Source: Gemmobacter fulvus (GTDB lineage: Bacteria; Pseudomonadota; Alphaproteobacteria; Rhodobacterales; Rhodobacteraceae). Taken from it: DNA of 64,000 nt. The position numbers were made by a program, and so were the translations under genes. The stretch covers positions 620,001 to 684,000 of the forward strand of contig NZ_CP076361.1 in NCBI RefSeq assembly GCF_018798885.1, written 5' to 3'. Below the pieces are notes generated by a model. That model had not been told where the DNA came from. It searched no databases and was given only the letters and a program-made list of their open reading frames with translations. This document shows positions 14,643 through 63,351 of this stretch, piece after piece (within the stretch, counting starts at the first letter, position 1; every line of letters starts with the position of its first letter).

Positions 14643-15425
14643 TCAGCGCGTCCAGTCGGGGCGGCGTTTTTCCAGAAAGGCCGCGATGCCTTCGGCGGCT
14701 TCGGCACTGTCCCAGCGGGCCACCAGACGGTCGATCGTGTCATCAATCAGTGCGCGGTCGATCGGCGGGGCCAGCCGCGCCACCAGCGCCTTGGCATCGC
14801 CCACCGCCCCCGGCGCACAACCAAGGAAGGGCAGCACCTCGGCCTCCACCGCCGCATCCAGATCGGCGGCGGGCACGATCTGGCTCAACAGGCCGATGCG
14901 ATGCGCCTCGGTCGCGTCGAACAGACGCGAGGCCATGAAATGCCGCCGCGCCGCCGTCGCCCCGATCCGCGCCACCACATAGGGCGAGATCGTCGCCGGG
15001 ATCAGCCCCAGCTTGGTTTCGGTCAGCCCGAATTTCGGCCCCTCGGTGCCGATGCACAGATCACAGACCGACATCATGCCGACGCCACCACCATAGGCCG
15101 CACCCTGCACCCGGCCGATCAGCGGCTTTGGCATGGTGTTCAGCGCGTTCAGCATCATTGCCAGCGCCGTCGCCCCCTGCCTGCGGGTTGCGGCATCGCC
15201 CGCAATCTGCGCCTTCATCCAGGTCAGATCGCCCCCGGCGCAGAAACTCTCGCCGCTGGCGGCCAGCACCACCACGCGCACCGCCGGGTCCGCGCCGAGC
15301 CGGGCCGCTACCGCCGTCAGTTCCTCGATCATGCGGGCCGACAGGGTGTTGTGCTTTTCGGGCCGGTTCAGTGTCAGCCGGGCCACACCACGCGCGTCCA
15401 GCTCCAGCAAGAGTGTGTCATACAT
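14643..15425 (-). CDS. liuC: Enoyl-CoA hydratase/crotonase, likely 3-methylglutaconyl-CoA hydratase
   Basis: Crotonase-fold enzyme, 260 aa; in this context most likely hydrates 3-methylglutaconyl-CoA to HMG-CoA in leucine degradation. It has the oxyanion-hole segments ESFCAGGDLTWM and GRVQGAAYGGGVGMMSVCDL, and the catalytic-type glutamate in TETKLGLIP. The ATG at 15425 is chosen since GAGGAG is 8 bp upstream; an ATG at 15431 is too close to it. It overlaps the liuE stop by 8 bp. Sequence alone would give only a generic enoyl-CoA hydratase; the specific role comes from the operon. Confidence 0.88.
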   Translation of the reverse strand: MYDTLLLELDARGVARLTLNRPEKHNTLSARMIEELTAVAARLGADPAVRVVVLAASGESFCAGGDLTWMKAQIAGDAATRRQGATALAMMLNALNTMPKPLIGRVQGAAYGGGVGMMSVCDLCIGTEGPKFGLTETKLGLIPATISPYVVARIGATAARRHFMASRLFDATEAHRIGLLSQIVPAADLDAAVEAEVLPFLGCAPGAVGDAKALVARLAPPIDRALIDDTIDRLVARWDSAEAAEGIAAFLEKRRPDWTR

Positions 15426-16287
15426 CGCCATCTCTCCTCATCCGCATCACGCGGGCCATGGTGGCCGCCTCGGCCAGAATATTGGCATCAAGCCCGGTGG
15501 CAAAGCCCAGCGCCGCCAGCCGGTCCGCCACGGTTTCGGTGGCCACATTGCCCGCCGCACCCGGCGCATAGGGGCAACCGCCGAGGCCCCCCACCGCCGC
15601 ATCGAACACCCGCAGCCCCAGCGCCAGCGATGCTTCGATATTGGCCAGCGCCCGGCCCGCCGTATCATGGTAATGCCCGGCCAGACGCGCAGCCGGCACT
15701 TCGGCCAGCACCGCCTCCAGCATGGCGCGGATCGTTTCGGGGCGGCCTTGGCCGATGGTGTCTCCCAGACTGATTTCGTAACAGCCCAGATCGCGCAGCG
15801 CCGCCACCACGCGGGCCACCTGTGCGGGCGCGGTCGGCCCGTCGAACGGGCAATCCGTCACCATCGACACATAGCCGCGCATCGGGATGCCATCGGCCCG
15901 CGCCGTTTCGGCCAGCGGAGCAAAGCGGGCCAGACTTTCGGCAATCGAGCAGTTGAGATTGGCGCGCGAAAACCCTTCGGAGGCCGAGGCGAAAATCGCC
16001 ACTTCCGAGGCCTGCGCCGCCCGCGCCGCCGCATAGCCCTTCAGGTTCGGGGTCAGGGCGGCATAACTCACGCCGGGCGCGCGCCGGATGCCCGCCAGAA
16101 CCTGCGCCGCATCGGCCATCTGCGGCACCCATTTCGGGCTGACAAAGCTTGTCACCTCGATCCGGCGGAACCCGGCGCGCGACAGCAGATCGACCAGCGC
16201 GATCTTCTCTGCCGTCGGGATCAGCCGCGCCTCGTTCTGCAAGCCGTCGCGCGGCCCCATTTCAAAGATTTCGGCACGGTCAACCAT
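15418..16287 (-). CDS. liuE: Hydroxymethylglutaryl-CoA lyase
   Basis: Cleaves HMG-CoA to acetoacetate and acetyl-CoA. 289 aa TIM-barrel of the HMGL family: FEMGPRDGLQNEARLIP at the N-terminus carries the metal-binding Asp and catalytic Arg, EVTSFVSPKWVPQM follows, and GLGGCPYAPGAAGNVATE has the catalytic cysteine region. Start at 16287 is supported by GAGG 6 bp upstream; it overlaps the glutathione S-transferase end by 8 bp. A second, out-of-operon start would be unusual. Confidence 0.95.
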   Translation of the reverse strand: MVDRAEIFEMGPRDGLQNEARLIPTAEKIALVDLLSRAGFRRIEVTSFVSPKWVPQMADAAQVLAGIRRAPGVSYAALTPNLKGYAAARAAQASEVAIFASASEGFSRANLNCSIAESLARFAPLAETARADGIPMRGYVSMVTDCPFDGPTAPAQVARVVAALRDLGCYEISLGDTIGQGRPETIRAMLEAVLAEVPAARLAGHYHDTAGRALANIEASLALGLRVFDAAVGGLGGCPYAPGAAGNVATETVADRLAALGFATGLDANILAEAATMARVMRMRRDGDV

Positions 16288-52056: not shown

Positions 52057-52099
52057 GTGACGTTCCTCTGCCTTGACAATGGGGGGCCTCGTGCCTCAG

Positions 52100-52290
52100 G
52101 TGAGGCGGCGCTGGTGCCTGATTATGTCAGGCGAAGAGGGAATGCGACAGGCAATGCGACGCACCATGCGCCGATGCCGAAGCGCAGCCGCCCCCGCGAC
52201 CGTGACCGGAGAGACCGCATTGCCACTGGGAAACCGGGAAGGCGGCGGTCAGGGGGAAACCCGCTCTGCAAGCCGGGAGACCTGCCAGCG
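52100..52290 (+). ncRNA. Cobalamin riboswitch
   Basis: Upstream of the DUF1636-cobW-cobN operon. Elements: GGTGCC near the 5' end (52110s), GGGAATGCG, GCCGCCCCCGCGACCGTGA, GCCACTGGG, GGGAAGGCGG and the B12-box AGCCGGGAGACCTGCC at 52271-52286. The layout matches a cobalamin aptamer; the 100 bp after it, before ATG 52391, contains GC-rich stretches fit for an expression platform. Limits are by eye. Confidence 0.9.
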
Positions 52291-52390
52291 CAGTGTTGAA
52301 ACGGGCGGACGGGGTGTTCCGCGACCGGCAGAGGCGCCATGCGCCCCTTCCGTTTGCCAAATGCCCCCTCGCCCAAGCCGGAAGAGAGCC

Positions 52391-58824: not shown

Positions 58825-59550
58825 ATGGCCCGCATCATCTGTGCCGGACTTGGCCCCGGCGACCCTGACCTGATCTCGATCCGGTCCGACCGGGCGATCC
58901 GTGCGGCCAGCCATGTCGCCTATTTCCGCAAGGAAGGGCGCAAGGGACAGGCGCGCGCCATCGTCGAGGGCATGTTGCGCCCCGATGCGGTCGAGCTGGC
59001 GATGGAATATCCCGTCACCACCGAATTGCCGTTTGACAGCCCGGAATACAATGACGCGCTGGCGCAGTTCTATGATCTCTGGGCCGAGCGTCTGGCGGCG
59101 ATGCCGGGCGAGGTGGTGGTGCTGTGCGAGGGCGACCCCTTCTTCTATGGCAGTTTCATGCACCTTTATACCCGGCTGAAAGACCGGGTGGCGGTGCAGG
59201 TCATCCCCGGCATCACCGGCATGGCGGGCTGCTGGCACGCCACCGGCACGCCGATCACCTGGGGCGATGACGTGCTGTCGGTGCTGATGGGCACGCTGCC
59301 GGAGCAGGATCTGGTGGCGCATATGCAAAGCGCCGATGCGCTGGCAATCATGAAAACCGGGCGCAATCTGCCCAAGGTGCGCCGCGCGCTGGAAACCGCC
59401 GGCCGGCTGGGCGATGCTTGGCTGATCGAGCGTGGCACCATGCCGGGCGAGCGGGTGGCGCGGCTGGCCGAGGTGGATGTGGCCGATTGTCCCTATTTCG
59501 CCATCGTGCTGGTGCATGGCCATGGCCGCCGCCCCGAGGTGCTGGAATGA
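58825..59550 (+). CDS. cobI: Precorrin-2 C20-methyltransferase
   Basis: 241-aa class III methyltransferase; GLGPGDPDLISIRSDRAI at the N-terminus and VVVLCEGDPFFYGSF, then VIPGITGMAGCWHATGTP. Overlaps cobJ by 4 bp. Confidence 0.96.
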   Translation: MARIICAGLGPGDPDLISIRSDRAIRAASHVAYFRKEGRKGQARAIVEGMLRPDAVELAMEYPVTTELPFDSPEYNDALAQFYDLWAERLAAMPGEVVVLCEGDPFFYGSFMHLYTRLKDRVAVQVIPGITGMAGCWHATGTPITWGDDVLSVLMGTLPEQDLVAHMQSADALAIMKTGRNLPKVRRALETAGRLGDAWLIERGTMPGERVARLAEVDVADCPYFAIVLVHGHGRRPEVLE

Positions 59551-60278
59551 CCGGCGCGGTTCTGATTGCGGGCCTCGGCCCCGGCGATGCCGCCATGGTC
59601 ACGCACGAGGTGACGGCGGCGCTGGCGCAGGCGACCGATGTGGTGGGCTATATCCCCTATGTCGCCCGCGTCGCGCCGCGCCCCGGCCTGACCCTGCATC
59701 CGACCGACAACCGGGTGGAGCTGGACCGCGCCACCCATGCACTTGAACTGGCGTCTGCCGGGGCGCGGGTGGTCGTGGTGTCATCCGGCGATCCGGGGGT
59801 GTTTGCCATGGCCAGCGCGGTGTTCGAGGCGCTGGAAGCCCGGCCCGATCTGGCCGATGTGCCGGTGACGGTGCTGCCGGGCATCACTGCGATGCTGGCC
59901 GCCGCCGCCGCCGCCGGGGCGCCGCTGGGCCATGACTTCTGCGCCATCAACCTCAGCGACAACCTCAAACCCTTTGCGCTGGTGGAAAAGCGGCTACGGC
60001 TGGCGGCACAGGCCGATTTTGCCATGGGGTTCTACAACCCCCGTTCAAAATCCCGCCCGCATCAGTTTGCCCGCGTGCTGGAGATCCTGCGCGAAGAATG
60101 TGCGCCGACCCGGCTGATCACCTTCGCCCGCGCCGTCTCGACCCCGGAGCAGGTGCTGCGCACCGTCACGCTGGCCGAGGCAACCGAGGATATGGCCGAT
60201 ATGCGCACGGTGGTGCTGGTCGGCAATTCCGCCACCCGCCGCGTCGGGCCCTATGTCTATACGCCCCGGTCAGCCTGA
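59547..60278 (+). CDS. cobJ: Precorrin-3B C17-methyltransferase
   Basis: 243-aa class III methyltransferase: LIAGLGPGDAAMVTHEV, VVVSSGDPGVFAMAS, VLPGITAMLAAAAAAGAPLGHDFCAINLSD. Its 3' end overlaps the reversed cobK by 22 bp, so the two genes converge. Confidence 0.96.
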   Translation: MTGAVLIAGLGPGDAAMVTHEVTAALAQATDVVGYIPYVARVAPRPGLTLHPTDNRVELDRATHALELASAGARVVVVSSGDPGVFAMASAVFEALEARPDLADVPVTVLPGITAMLAAAAAAGAPLGHDFCAINLSDNLKPFALVEKRLRLAAQADFAMGFYNPRSKSRPHQFARVLEILREECAPTRLITFARAVSTPEQVLRTVTLAEATEDMADMRTVVLVGNSATRRVGPYVYTPRSA

Positions 60279-61015
60279 TGCGCATCAGCCTGTGCCAGCC
60301 AGTGCAGCACCTCGGCCACCTCCGCCCGCACCGCGCGGGCGGGCAGCGCCGGGCGATCGATCATCACCACCGGCAGGCTCAGGGTGCGCGCCGCCGCGAG
60401 CTTGGCCTGCGCACCGCTGCCGCCCGCATTCTTGGCCACGACATGCGTGATCCGCTCTCGGCGCAACAGCGCCAGATCCCCGGCCAGATCAAAGGGGCCG
60501 CGTGCAATTTCCACCGAACAGTCGGGCAAGGGCAGCGCGCCCGGCGGATCGACCAGCCGCAGCAGGTAATGGTGCTGCGGTCTGGCGGCAAATTCCGCCA
60601 GATGCAGCTTGCCGATGGCCAGAAACACCCGCGCCGGGCTGTCGGGCAAGGCGGCAACCGCCCCGGCCATATCGGGCACATGGGTCCAGCGGTCGCCCGG
60701 CTCTGCCTTCCATTCCGGGCGTTGCAGCGCGACCAGCGGCACTTGGGCTTCGGCGCAGGCGGCAACGGCATTGCGGCTCATCTGCGCGGCAAAGGGATGG
60801 GTGGCGTCGATCACATGGCTGATCTGCGCGTCCCGCAGATACGCCACCAGCCCCGGCACACCGCCAAAACCACCAACCCGCATCGGCAGGGGCTGCGCGA
60901 CCGGCGCCTCGGTGCGCCCGGCATAGGAAAACACCGCCGCCAGCCCGGCATCGGCGAGCGCGCGGGCCATCCGGCTGGCCTCGGTGGTGCCGCCCAGCAA
61001 AAGAACGCGTGTCAT
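60257..61015 (-). CDS. cobK: Precorrin-6A reductase
   Basis: 252-aa NADPH-dependent reductase: VLLLGGTTEASRMARAL, IDATHPFAAQMSRNAV, THVVAKNAGGSGAQAK. On the strand opposite to the rest of the operon. ATG at 61015-61013 shares bases with the cobL start (61014). AGGG-type site 6 bp upstream. Transcription would need a promoter inside cobL. Confidence 0.94.
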   Translation of the reverse strand: MTRVLLLGGTTEASRMARALADAGLAAVFSYAGRTEAPVAQPLPMRVGGFGGVPGLVAYLRDAQISHVIDATHPFAAQMSRNAVAACAEAQVPLVALQRPEWKAEPGDRWTHVPDMAGAVAALPDSPARVFLAIGKLHLAEFAARPQHHYLLRLVDPPGALPLPDCSVEIARGPFDLAGDLALLRRERITHVVAKNAGGSGAQAKLAAARTLSLPVVMIDRPALPARAVRAEVAEVLHWLAQADAHQADRGV

Positions 61016-62207
61016 GTCTGAGCCCTGGCTGCATATCATCGGTCTGGGAGAAGATGGACTGGCGGGCCTGCCCGGCGCAAGCCGTGCCGCGCTGGACCGC
61101 GCCGAAATCATCATCGGCGGGCCGCGTCACCTGGATCTGGTGCAGGCGGGCGCGCGGGGGCAACCCTGGCCGGTGCCGTTTTCCACCGCCCCCGTGCTGG
61201 CCGCCAAGGGCCGCCGCGTGGTGGTTCTCGCCTCGGGCGATCCGTTCTGGCATGGCGCGGGCGGCAGTCTGCTGAGCCACCTAGCTCCCCCTGATCTTGC
61301 GCCCGGCGACTGGATCAGCCATCCCGCCGCATCGTCGTTTCAGCTGGCCGCGAACCGGCTGGGCTGGCGGATGGAAGATACGCTGTGCCTTGGCCTGCAC
61401 GCCGCCCCCTTGGCCCGGCTGCGCCCGTTGCTGCATCCGGGCAGCCGCGTGCTGGTGACGCTGCGCGACGGGGCGGCGGCGGCAGAGCTGGCGCTGTGGC
61501 TCAGCACGCATGGCCATGCGGCGGCAGAGCTGCATGTTCTGGAGCGGCTGGGCGGCCCGGCCGAACGCATCCGCGCCACCACGGCTGCGGGCTTTGATCT
61601 GGACGCGGTGCAGGCCCCGGTTCTGGCCGCAATCACTGCCCGCGATCCGGGCCTGCCGCGCGTGGCGGGGTTGCCGGATGATCTGTTTGCCAGTGATGGC
61701 CAGATCACCAAACGCCCGATCCGCGCCCTGACCCTGTCAAGCCTCGCCCCCCGGCCCGGTGAGCATCTGTGGGATCTGGGTGCCGGCTCCGGCTCCATCT
61801 CGGTCGAATGGTGCCTTGCGGGCGGCACGGCCTCGGCGGTGGAGCGGCGGGCCGACCGCCTGCCGAACATCCGCGCCAATGCCGACAGCTTTGGCCTGTC
61901 GCATCGCTTGACGGCGGTAGAGAGCGCCTCGCAGGCCGCCTTGCCGCATCTGCCGCGCCCCGATGCGGTGTTCATTGGCGGCGGGGCCGATGCGGGCCTG
62001 CTGGCGGCGCTGTGGGACGCGGTGCCGGAGGGCACGCGGCTGGTGGTCAATGCCGTCACGCTGGAAACCGAGGCGCTGCTCTATGACCACCACGTCCGGC
62101 TGGGCGGCGCGCTGATGCGCATCGACATTGCGCAGGCCGGTCCCTTGGGCGGGATGCGCGGCTGGTCCGCCGCCCGGCCCGTGGTGCAATGGAGTGTCAT
62201 GCGATGA
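61014..62207 (+). CDS. cobL: Precorrin-6Y methyltransferase (C5/C15, decarboxylating)
   Basis: 397-aa fusion: N-terminal CobE-type methylase ([14 protein letters not shown], residues about 7-20) and C-terminal SAM methyltransferase ([23 protein letters not shown]). Methylates C5 and C15 of precorrin-6B and decarboxylates C12. Start overlaps the cobK start codon. ATG 61014 is set by the family N-terminus. Confidence 0.95.
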
Positions 62208-62572
62208 TCGCCGCCGGAATTGGCCTGCGCGCCAGCGCCACGCTTGCCGATCTGCGCGCCGTGCTGGCGCTGGCCGCAACGCCGCCGCAGGCGCTGGCCA
62301 CACCCGCCGACAAGGCCGACCATCCGGCGCTGCACGCCCTTGCCAGCGCGACGGGCCTGTCCCTGCATCCCGTGCCGCTGGCCACCCTGCTGGCGCAGAT
62401 CACCGTCACCCACAGCCCACACCAGCCCGCCCGCTATGGCGCGGGATCGGTGGCCGAAGCGGCAGCCCTTGCCGCCGCTGGCCCCGGTGCCCGGCTGATC
62501 CAGACCCGTATCCTCAGCCCCGGTGGTCTGGCCACCCTCGCGCTGGCCTCTTCAGAAGGACAAACCGCATGA
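62204..62572 (+). CDS. cobE: Cobalamin biosynthesis protein CobE
   Basis: 122-aa protein of the CobE/CbiG C-terminal type, [19 protein letters not shown] and [16 protein letters not shown]. Binds corrin intermediates in other species. ATGA overlap with cobL; a short frame from 62189 is not needed. Confidence 0.9.
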
Positions 62573-63351
62573 CCGTGCATTTCATCGGCGCAGGCCCCGG
62601 TGCCGCCGACCTGATCACCCTGCGCGGGCGCGACCTGATCGCCGCCTCGCCCGTCTGCCTTTATGCCGGGTCGCTGGTGCCCGAGGCGCTGCTGGCGCAT
62701 TGCCCGCCCGGCGCGCGGATCGTGAACACCGCGCCGCTGAGCCTCGATGCCATCATCGACGAAATCGCCGCCGCCCATGCCGCAGGGCAGGATGTCGCGC
62801 GGCTGCATTCGGGTGACCTGTCGGTCTGGTCGGCGATGGGCGAACAGCTGCGCCGGTTGCGGGCGCTGAACATCCCCTATGATGTCACCCCCGGTGTGCC
62901 CAGCTTTGCCGCCGCCGCAGCCGCCCTTGGCGCGGAACTCACCCTGCCCGGCATTGCGCAATCGGTGGTGCTGACCCGCACCTCGGGGCGTGCCTCGTCG
63001 ATGCCCGAGGGCGAGGCGCTGGAGAATTTTGCCCGCACCGGCGCGGTGCTGGCCATCCATCTGTCGGTGCATGTGCTGGAAACGGTGATTGCCACCCTGA
63101 CGCCGCATTACGGGGCCGATTGCCCGGTGGCGGTGGTCTGGCGCGCCAGCTGGCCCGATCAGCGCATCGTGCGCGCCACGCTCGCCACGCTGGAAACCGC
63201 CATCGGGGCCGAAATGGAACGCACGGCGCTGATCCTTGTCGGCCATTCCATCGGGGCCGAGGAATTTGACGAAAGCCGCCTTTACGCAGGCGATTACGAC
63301 CGCCGCTATCGCCCGGTCGGAACTGCCCCGCGTTTCCCGGAAACCGCATGA
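62569..63351 (+). CDS. cobM: Precorrin-4 C11-methyltransferase
   Basis: 260-aa class III methyltransferase; [52 protein letters not shown]. Overlaps cobE and cobB by 4 bp each. Confidence 0.96.

Follow-up and report, generated by a model that had tools for sequence, protein, structure and literature searches.

Introduction

In the noncontiguous operon menE-menC-MW1733-ytkD-MW1731 of Staphylococcus aureus, a gene directed against the operon lies inside it, the RNAs overlap along its length, and the stretch of the operon opposite the inverted gene is described as untranslated (PMC7154746). In Dickeya, 83 noncontiguous-operon units have been reported (PMC9239193). The cobalamin biosynthesis (cob) operon studied here, from a 64,000-nucleotide stretch of Gemmobacter fulvus (contig NZ_CP076361.1, positions 620,001 to 684,000, in the following the window), has the same layout, with cobG-cobH-cobI-cobJ on the plus strand, cobK on the minus strand and cobL-cobE-cobM-cobB again on the plus strand. 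Unlike the men operon, it carries opposite the inverted gene a conserved, stop-free open reading frame (ORF) with coupling-type junctions at both ends, one to the stop codon of cobJ and one to the start codon of cobL. Co-transcription has been demonstrated for men (PMC7154746) and is predicted for the cob locus. We propose that this bridge ORF probably carries ribosomes across the reversed gene.

The junctions, of the types ATGA, GTGA and TGATG, resemble those of coupled genes with overlaps of 4 base pairs (bp), and cobI and cobJ of the same operon overlap in this way as well. In contrast to ordinary coupled genes (PMC2716372), the middle ORF of the cob locus lies opposite a real gene, and the sequence of its product is not conserved. 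With the translated antisense ORFs of bacteria it shares its position opposite an annotated gene and its presumed translation; the published examples are discussed as candidate functional proteins, whereas the cob data fit ribosome passage and not a product (PMC7457138). As in divergent overlapping genes, an under-represented class, the 5' ends of cobK and cobL overlap on opposite strands. The source on that class is a statistical survey (PMC2174442), while the cob pair is a single arrangement conserved from one alphaproteobacterial family to another and also in some betaproteobacteria. Adjacent genes from cobH to cobL are described as overlapping in Ensifer and its relatives, and the passages on cobH-cobI-cobJ-cobK-cobL in that account say nothing of a conserved frame, or of any frame, on the antisense strand (PMC4070679). 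Noncontiguous operons, the cobH to cobL overlaps of Ensifer and coupling via 4-bp overlaps are already known, and translation of antisense ORFs is being debated. An ORF that bridges an inverted gene on its antisense strand was not found described in the open-access literature searched, a scope outside which most subscription papers lie.

Results

A frame opposite cobK joins cobJ to cobL

In the window the bridge ORF starts with the ATG contained in the TGATG at the end of cobJ, stays open for 247 codons and terminates at a TGA (61019-61021) inside ATGTCTGA, 5 nucleotides (nt) into cobL (Table 1). The initial annotation, whose coordinates for cobJ, cobK and cobL proved correct, missed this conserved plus-strand frame joining cobJ to cobL across cobK.

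Relatives were collected with a search for cobK (PF02571) that covered 149 genomes at the level of the family, 240 at that of the class and 11 at that of the genus, and that gave loci L001-L190. The family search matched in 113 of the 149 genomes, and the window plus 30 plus 80 loci were used; the class search matched in 79 of the 240, and 29 loci besides the window plus 40 were used, weaker or partial matches being left out in both cases. Loci L191-L270 are the best 80 of 475 relatives among the named loci of a genome collection and are biased to close matches of the window CobK. The order cobI-cobJ-cobK (reversed)-cobL with both N-termini placed was found in 158 of the 270 loci, 79 of them from L001-L190 (15 family codes, 63 loci in the window's own family). 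An exact CATG overlap between the nearest ATG codons of cobK and cobL was called in 135 of the 158; these strict loci include a few doubtful CATGs. A bridge was taken as complete when an in-frame start lay between 7 nt upstream and 14 nt downstream of the end of the cobJ stop, the frame was open through cobK, and its stop fell between 2 nt upstream and 9 nt downstream of any of the first four cobL starts listed.

A complete bridge is present in 151 of the 158 loci, or in 147 of 154 after removal of identical ones. Among the 135 strict loci the frame is stop-free across cobK in 132, and its stop (TGA in 124, TAA in 8, TAG in 3) lies exactly at +5 of the cobL ATG, counted from its A, in 128. At the other end, a start codon of the bridge frame overlaps the cobJ stop in 116 loci (ATGA in 82, GTGA in 19, TTGA in 1, TGATG in 14); in 16 more the start lies within 60 nt of the cobJ stop, and in three there is none. 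Overlapping stop and start codons of the kind seen in translational coupling are found at both ends. The base preceding the cobJ stop is A in 86 of 135 loci, against 7.7% A at cobJ third positions and 21.5% of 330 genes of the window's own genome; this last comparison covers 400 kb in 20 stretches, with genes called by a crude codon-usage caller and starts approximate. The second codon of cobL is TCT or GCT in 113 of 135 loci, codons that make up 7% of the Ser and 6% of the Ala codons of cobL, respectively; a third base T in the second codon occurs in 12.7% of the same 330 genes. Although the spacing of the cobJ and cobK stops ranges from -52 to +107 nt, a single phase is kept in 155 of the 158 loci and in 20 of the 21 in which the two genes are separated by a true gap.

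Of the plasmid records, 11 of 268 with a match were examined; one (Caballeronia) had no cobJ in reach, and all ten others have a complete bridge, in orders given by the records as Rhodobacterales, Sphingomonadales, Hyphomicrobiales and Rhodospirillales. The opposite-strand layout of cobK is annotated as such in records of Paracoccus, Novosphingobium, Rhizobium, Nitratireductor, Alloyangia, Azospirillum and Acidiphilium. The junctions differ in detail: in Azospirillum the bridge starts with GTG 9 nt after the cobJ stop and the annotated cobL begins just past the bridge stop, in Nitratireductor the bridge runs for a few codons into cobL before it ends with TAG, and in Acidiphilium the junction is formed by an ATG that precedes the annotated cobL start. 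The bridge is also present in seven betaproteobacterial loci (L213, L244, L250, L251, L253, L256 and L269, from Rubrivivax, Comamonadaceae, Hydrogenophaga, Curvibacter and Rhodoferax), one of which (L256) lacks the CATG. The cob layout of these loci is the same and their cobK is 64-70% identical to that of the window, which suggests transfer of the cluster.

cobK avoids the codons that would close the frame

TTA, CTA and TCA are the sole codons of cobK that place a stop in the bridge. They are absent from cobK (3505 Leu and 932 Ser codons) in 133 strict loci, while cobI contains 77, cobJ 194 and cobL 268 of them; L059 and L022, with 13 and 3 such codons in cobK, were left out of this count. 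The next most depleted codon of cobK is TCG, by 2.3-fold. A general avoidance of A-ending codons in cobK was considered and ruled out, as the remaining codons of this type differ by no more than 1.5-fold from their use in cobI, cobJ and cobL. The Ser codons of cobK include less TCG and more AGC and AGT than those of the three other genes; TCG is one transition away from TCA.

Over all 157 loci in which the four genes were found, 33 of the three codons were observed in cobK and 178.9 expected, and 29 of the 33 belong to the AT-richer loci L041 and L059. Loci free of them number 153 of 157, as against 80.4 expected. With one locus per cluster at a cobJ identity of 0.80 (64 loci), 32 were observed and 112.6 expected (Poisson P 3e-19), and with clusters at 0.70 (22 loci) the numbers were 32 and 66.7, respectively (P 1.8e-6), so that the deficit remains.

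Two control sets resemble ordinary genes. In the first, of 59 cobK genes without cobJ or cobL beside them (L092-L150), 112 of 1994 Leu and Ser codons were of this kind and 37% of the genes had no antisense stop. Neighbours were viewed for six of these genes; a flanking ORF there is, by its motif, presumably CbiD-like. The second control consisted of 20 loci with reversed cobK at 730-1409 nt from cobJ, which have 0-18 antisense stops, with a mean of 4.5 and none in four; it has no GC-matched expectation and some of its loci look AT-rich. In L034 and L038 (family f37), cobJ adjoins a reversed cobK, no cobL was found within reach, and cobK contains no antisense stop.

The bridge peptide is under no visible constraint

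The first positions of bridge codons are the third positions of cobK codons. Four-fold divergence was analyzed in 132 and 128 strict loci. For pairs with a cobJ identity of at least 0.9 (72 pairs) it amounts to 0.402 in cobK, 0.388 in cobI, 0.412 in cobJ and 0.410 in cobL, and the value for cobK is also close to those of its neighbours in four bins of lower identity. Along cobK the lowest bin (0.42) comprises the first 15 columns, the site of the Shine-Dalgarno (SD) sequence of cobL; cobI and cobL have equally low bins. Since the synonymous divergence of cobK is normal, the bridge peptide does not appear to be conserved, and the constraint on amino acids expected of a functional antisense gene was not seen. 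The product of the window bridge matches no family in NCBIfam or Pfam. A conserved antisense protein is not supported by these results; the frame is kept open while its amino acids seem free to drift as far as cobK permits.

The CATG junction of cobK and cobL

The initial annotation had drawn attention to the start codons of cobK (61015-61013, minus strand) and cobL (61014-61016, plus strand), which indeed share 2 nt within CATG, and to the overlap of the 3' ends of cobK and cobJ, which covers 22 bp (60257-60278). The question of whether other genomes keep the junction can be answered in the affirmative: its 135 occurrences divide into 61 of 79 loci in L001-L190 and 74 of 79 in L191-L270, and 131 of 154 remain once four identical loci are taken out. 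For at least L032 and L042, both counted among the 135, the CATG may be a chance occurrence far from the protein motifs. The 2-nt overlap is annotated in Paracoccus saliphilus, Novosphingobium ES2-1, Rhizobium etli CIAT 652, R. leguminosarum WSM2304, Nitratireductor and Alloyangia, and gaps between cobK and cobL are annotated in Azospirillum B510 and Acidiphilium. The reversed orientation of cobK in Rhizobiales, also suggested by the initial annotation, is annotated in R. etli, R. leguminosarum and Nitratireductor. Among 44 divergent pairs called in 400 kb of the own genome by the crude caller with its approximate starts, one overlaps and none shows the exact 2-nt overlap. It had also been stated that the N-termini of the protein families leave little freedom for other starts. 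This is not fully right: N-terminal lengths vary through insertions and deletions (indels) and CATG stays. The overlap itself thus persists through indels, because in both proteins the first conserved motif lies at a variable distance from CATG. In L074 and L086 a G replaces the C of CATG; the cobL ATG is intact and cobK has ATC at that place, so that cobK must start at a rare codon or at an ATG 27 nt further upstream, inside cobL.

CATG was also considered as the selected feature. In families without an overlap of cobK and cobL (L033, L035, L037, L160, L166, Methylobacterium) the bridge is kept and ends with ATGA or GTGA on the cobL start. Because these lineages still end the frame on the cobL start, CATG appears secondary and less general than the bridge.

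Signals for translation and transcription

Mean pairing with the anti-SD sequence is -6.46 kcal/mol for cobL and -4.53 kcal/mol for cobK over the 135 loci, compared with -2.54 and -2.10 kcal/mol at random sites. The ribosome-binding sites assigned by the initial annotation to the interior of the respective other gene are thereby borne out on average; pairing in the window itself is weak (cobL -0.9, cobK -3.1 kcal/mol). The bridge start has a mean of -4.28 kcal/mol (134 loci; random sites -2.1 to -2.5). Coupling would matter more in the window, where SD pairing is weak.

Between 60150 and 61700 no sigma-70-like site was detected on either strand, in what is a weak test, and no intrinsic terminator-like site on the plus strand. 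For a cobK promoter inside cobL, the first 200 nt of cobL showed no excess of TANNNT on the minus strand. The early codons of cobL display a weak dip in four-fold divergence (0.39 in one 5-codon bin, 0.43 in the second 15-column bin), which is not far enough below the bins of other genes to call a cobK promoter from it.

Surrounding genes and other inverted genes

On the plus strand, a riboswitch is followed by cobW, cobN, cobG, cobH, cobI and cobJ, as judged by profile matches in the window, and 3' of cobL lie the small CbiG-like gene, cobM and cobB with overlapping ends. The gene at the position of the small CbiG-like gene is named 'cobalamin biosynthesis protein' in one of the annotated records. 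The cobK of Gemmobacter aquatilis and G. caeni is identical to that of loci from the window's genus, and G389, an assembly of this genus with a contamination estimate of 3%, contains two different cobK loci of the same layout (L063 and L070).

Table 1. Features of the cob locus in the window (positions within the stretch).
Feature	Position	Strand	Basis or remark
Cobalamin riboswitch	52095..52303	+	Rfam RF00174, 90.2 bits; 5' of cobW-cobN-cobG-cobH-cobI-cobJ
cobI	58825..59550	+	TIGR01467/NF004647; stop overlaps cobJ start (ATGA)
cobJ, precorrin-3B C17-methyltransferase	59547..60278	+	TIGR01466
TGATG, overlap of cobJ stop and bridge-ORF ATG	60276..60280	+	sequence
Bridge ORF, 247 codons and TGA, unannotated	60278..61021	+	antisense to cobK, in its codon register
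cobK, precorrin-6A reductase, reversed	60257..61015	-	NF005968, 330.5 bits (cut-off 231)
CATG common to cobK and cobL start codons	61013..61016	both	sequence
ATGTCTGA, cobL start overlapping bridge-ORF stop	61014..61021	+	sequence; stop position across loci
cobL (CbiE-CbiT fusion)	61014..62207	+	TIGR02467 and TIGR02469
Small cobalamin biosynthesis protein, CbiG-C-terminal type (cobE-like)	62189..62572	+	weak NF004467 match; overlaps cobL and cobM
cobM	62569..63351	+	TIGR01465; start overlaps preceding stop (ATGA)

In the same 400 kb of the own genome, 34 genes are reversed between two opposite-strand genes. Eight of these have an open frame whose beginning is no more than 60 nt away from the upstream stop; the downstream start is reached by none of the eight frames. 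At L297 (about 15030-15630, minus strand) a reversed gene of 116 codons has an in-register antisense frame that runs from the upstream stop to 22 nt before the next gene. This is the nearest case in the own genome and a possible second relay, as delimited by the crude gene caller.

Discussion

The junctions at both ends of the bridge are conserved, the lack of antisense stops in cobK is selective and the synonymous divergence of cobK is normal. The first two of these features argue for translation opposite cobK. We consider it likely that the cob genes form a noncontiguous operon into which a ribosome relay across the reversed member is built. Ribosomes that end cobJ would re-initiate at the overlapping start of the bridge ORF, read across the complement of cobK, terminate at the stop that overlaps the cobL start and re-initiate on cobL. 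About 740 nt of the polycistronic RNA would in this way be kept translated, which would keep Rho off before cobL, the cobE-like gene, cobM and cobB. The relay would couple the output of cobL to that of cobJ, with the bridge peptide as a by-product, and cobK would be transcribed on the opposite strand from within cobL. What we infer from the sequence is that the operon genes are co-transcribed, that ribosomes translate the bridge and re-initiate, that the RNA is thereby protected from Rho, and that cobK has a promoter of its own. As the RNA of cobK is necessarily antisense to that of the operon, the two may regulate each other, as in the men operon of S. aureus.

The operon-type junctions at both ends and the strict openness of the frame are just what would be expected of a real gene, so that the antisense frame could be a hidden overlapping gene selected for its product. 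On the other hand, four-fold divergence of cobK is similar to that of its neighbours in all identity bins, with only the first 15-column bin low, and the product has no match in the family databases, which makes this explanation unlikely. A conventional divergent pair, with promoters inside each other's genes, no read-through from cobJ and an overlap that reflects compaction, would agree with the head-to-head CATG of most loci and with SD-like pairing at both starts. It does not account for the ATGA at the cobJ stop, the phase that the bridge keeps with cobJ or the avoidance of stops along cobK, and the promoter search, weak as that test is, found no sigma-70-like site; we regard it as distinctly improbable.

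Several points weigh against the proposed relay. The loci are related by descent, and cluster representatives enter the P values as if they were independent. Taken by itself, the window could have its open frame by chance: with the codon usage of cobI, cobJ and cobL, 1.18 antisense stops are expected in cobK, and the probability of finding none is 0.30. The window bridge start pairs weakly with the anti-SD sequence (-2.4 kcal/mol), and on the minus strand the 5' part of cobK contains two overlapping weak terminator-like stem-loops (60950-60935). A complete bridge is absent in seven of the 158 loci (L022, L041, L042, L059, L075, L088 and L243). The cobK of L041 has 16 codons that put a stop into the frame, with 12.4 expected, and for L059, which retains CATG without the bridge, 7.8 were expected and the count given above exceeds this value. 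Because cobK holds such codons at or above expectation in these two AT-richer loci, the bridge seems dispensable there; it has apparently been lost, or never arose, despite the same gene layout. Furthermore, 30 of 52 own-genome genes of 220-290 codons are likewise without an antisense in-register stop.

Openness of this kind is expected in GC-rich genomes, and GC-rich codon usage might have opened the frame as a mere by-product, with the ordinary start context of cobL and the ordinary end of cobJ forming the junctions. Across the relatives the open frame is evidently not a matter of chance. cobK lacks TTA, CTA and TCA but uses other A-ending codons at near their usual level, stop-free loci are almost twice as numerous as expected, and both phase and stop position persist through indels. 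None of the other inverted genes of the own genome has an antisense frame that ends at the downstream start, and a T at the third base of the second codon is infrequent among own-genome genes. A by-product is accordingly the least credible of the explanations considered, and very improbable.

Beyond the single operon, we are inclined, on balance, to see in the bridge a class of antisense relay ORFs that are selected for being translated and not for their product, and that carry ribosomes across an inverted gene. The cob bridge, spread over four alphaproteobacterial orders and betaproteobacterial clusters, would be the first case, none being described in the open-access literature searched. If such a class exists, an operon can hold a reversed member, keep translational coupling and escape being cut short by Rho.

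If the relay is real, it shows how an operon can accommodate a wrong-strand gene and yet stay intact, and that selection on synonymous codons in one gene can serve translation on the opposite strand. It would also be a warning that selection can act on long antisense ORFs and antisense ribosome footprints in the absence of a functional protein. This would have implications for the purpose of antisense translation and for attempts to engineer B12 operons by changing the codons of cobK or its orientation.

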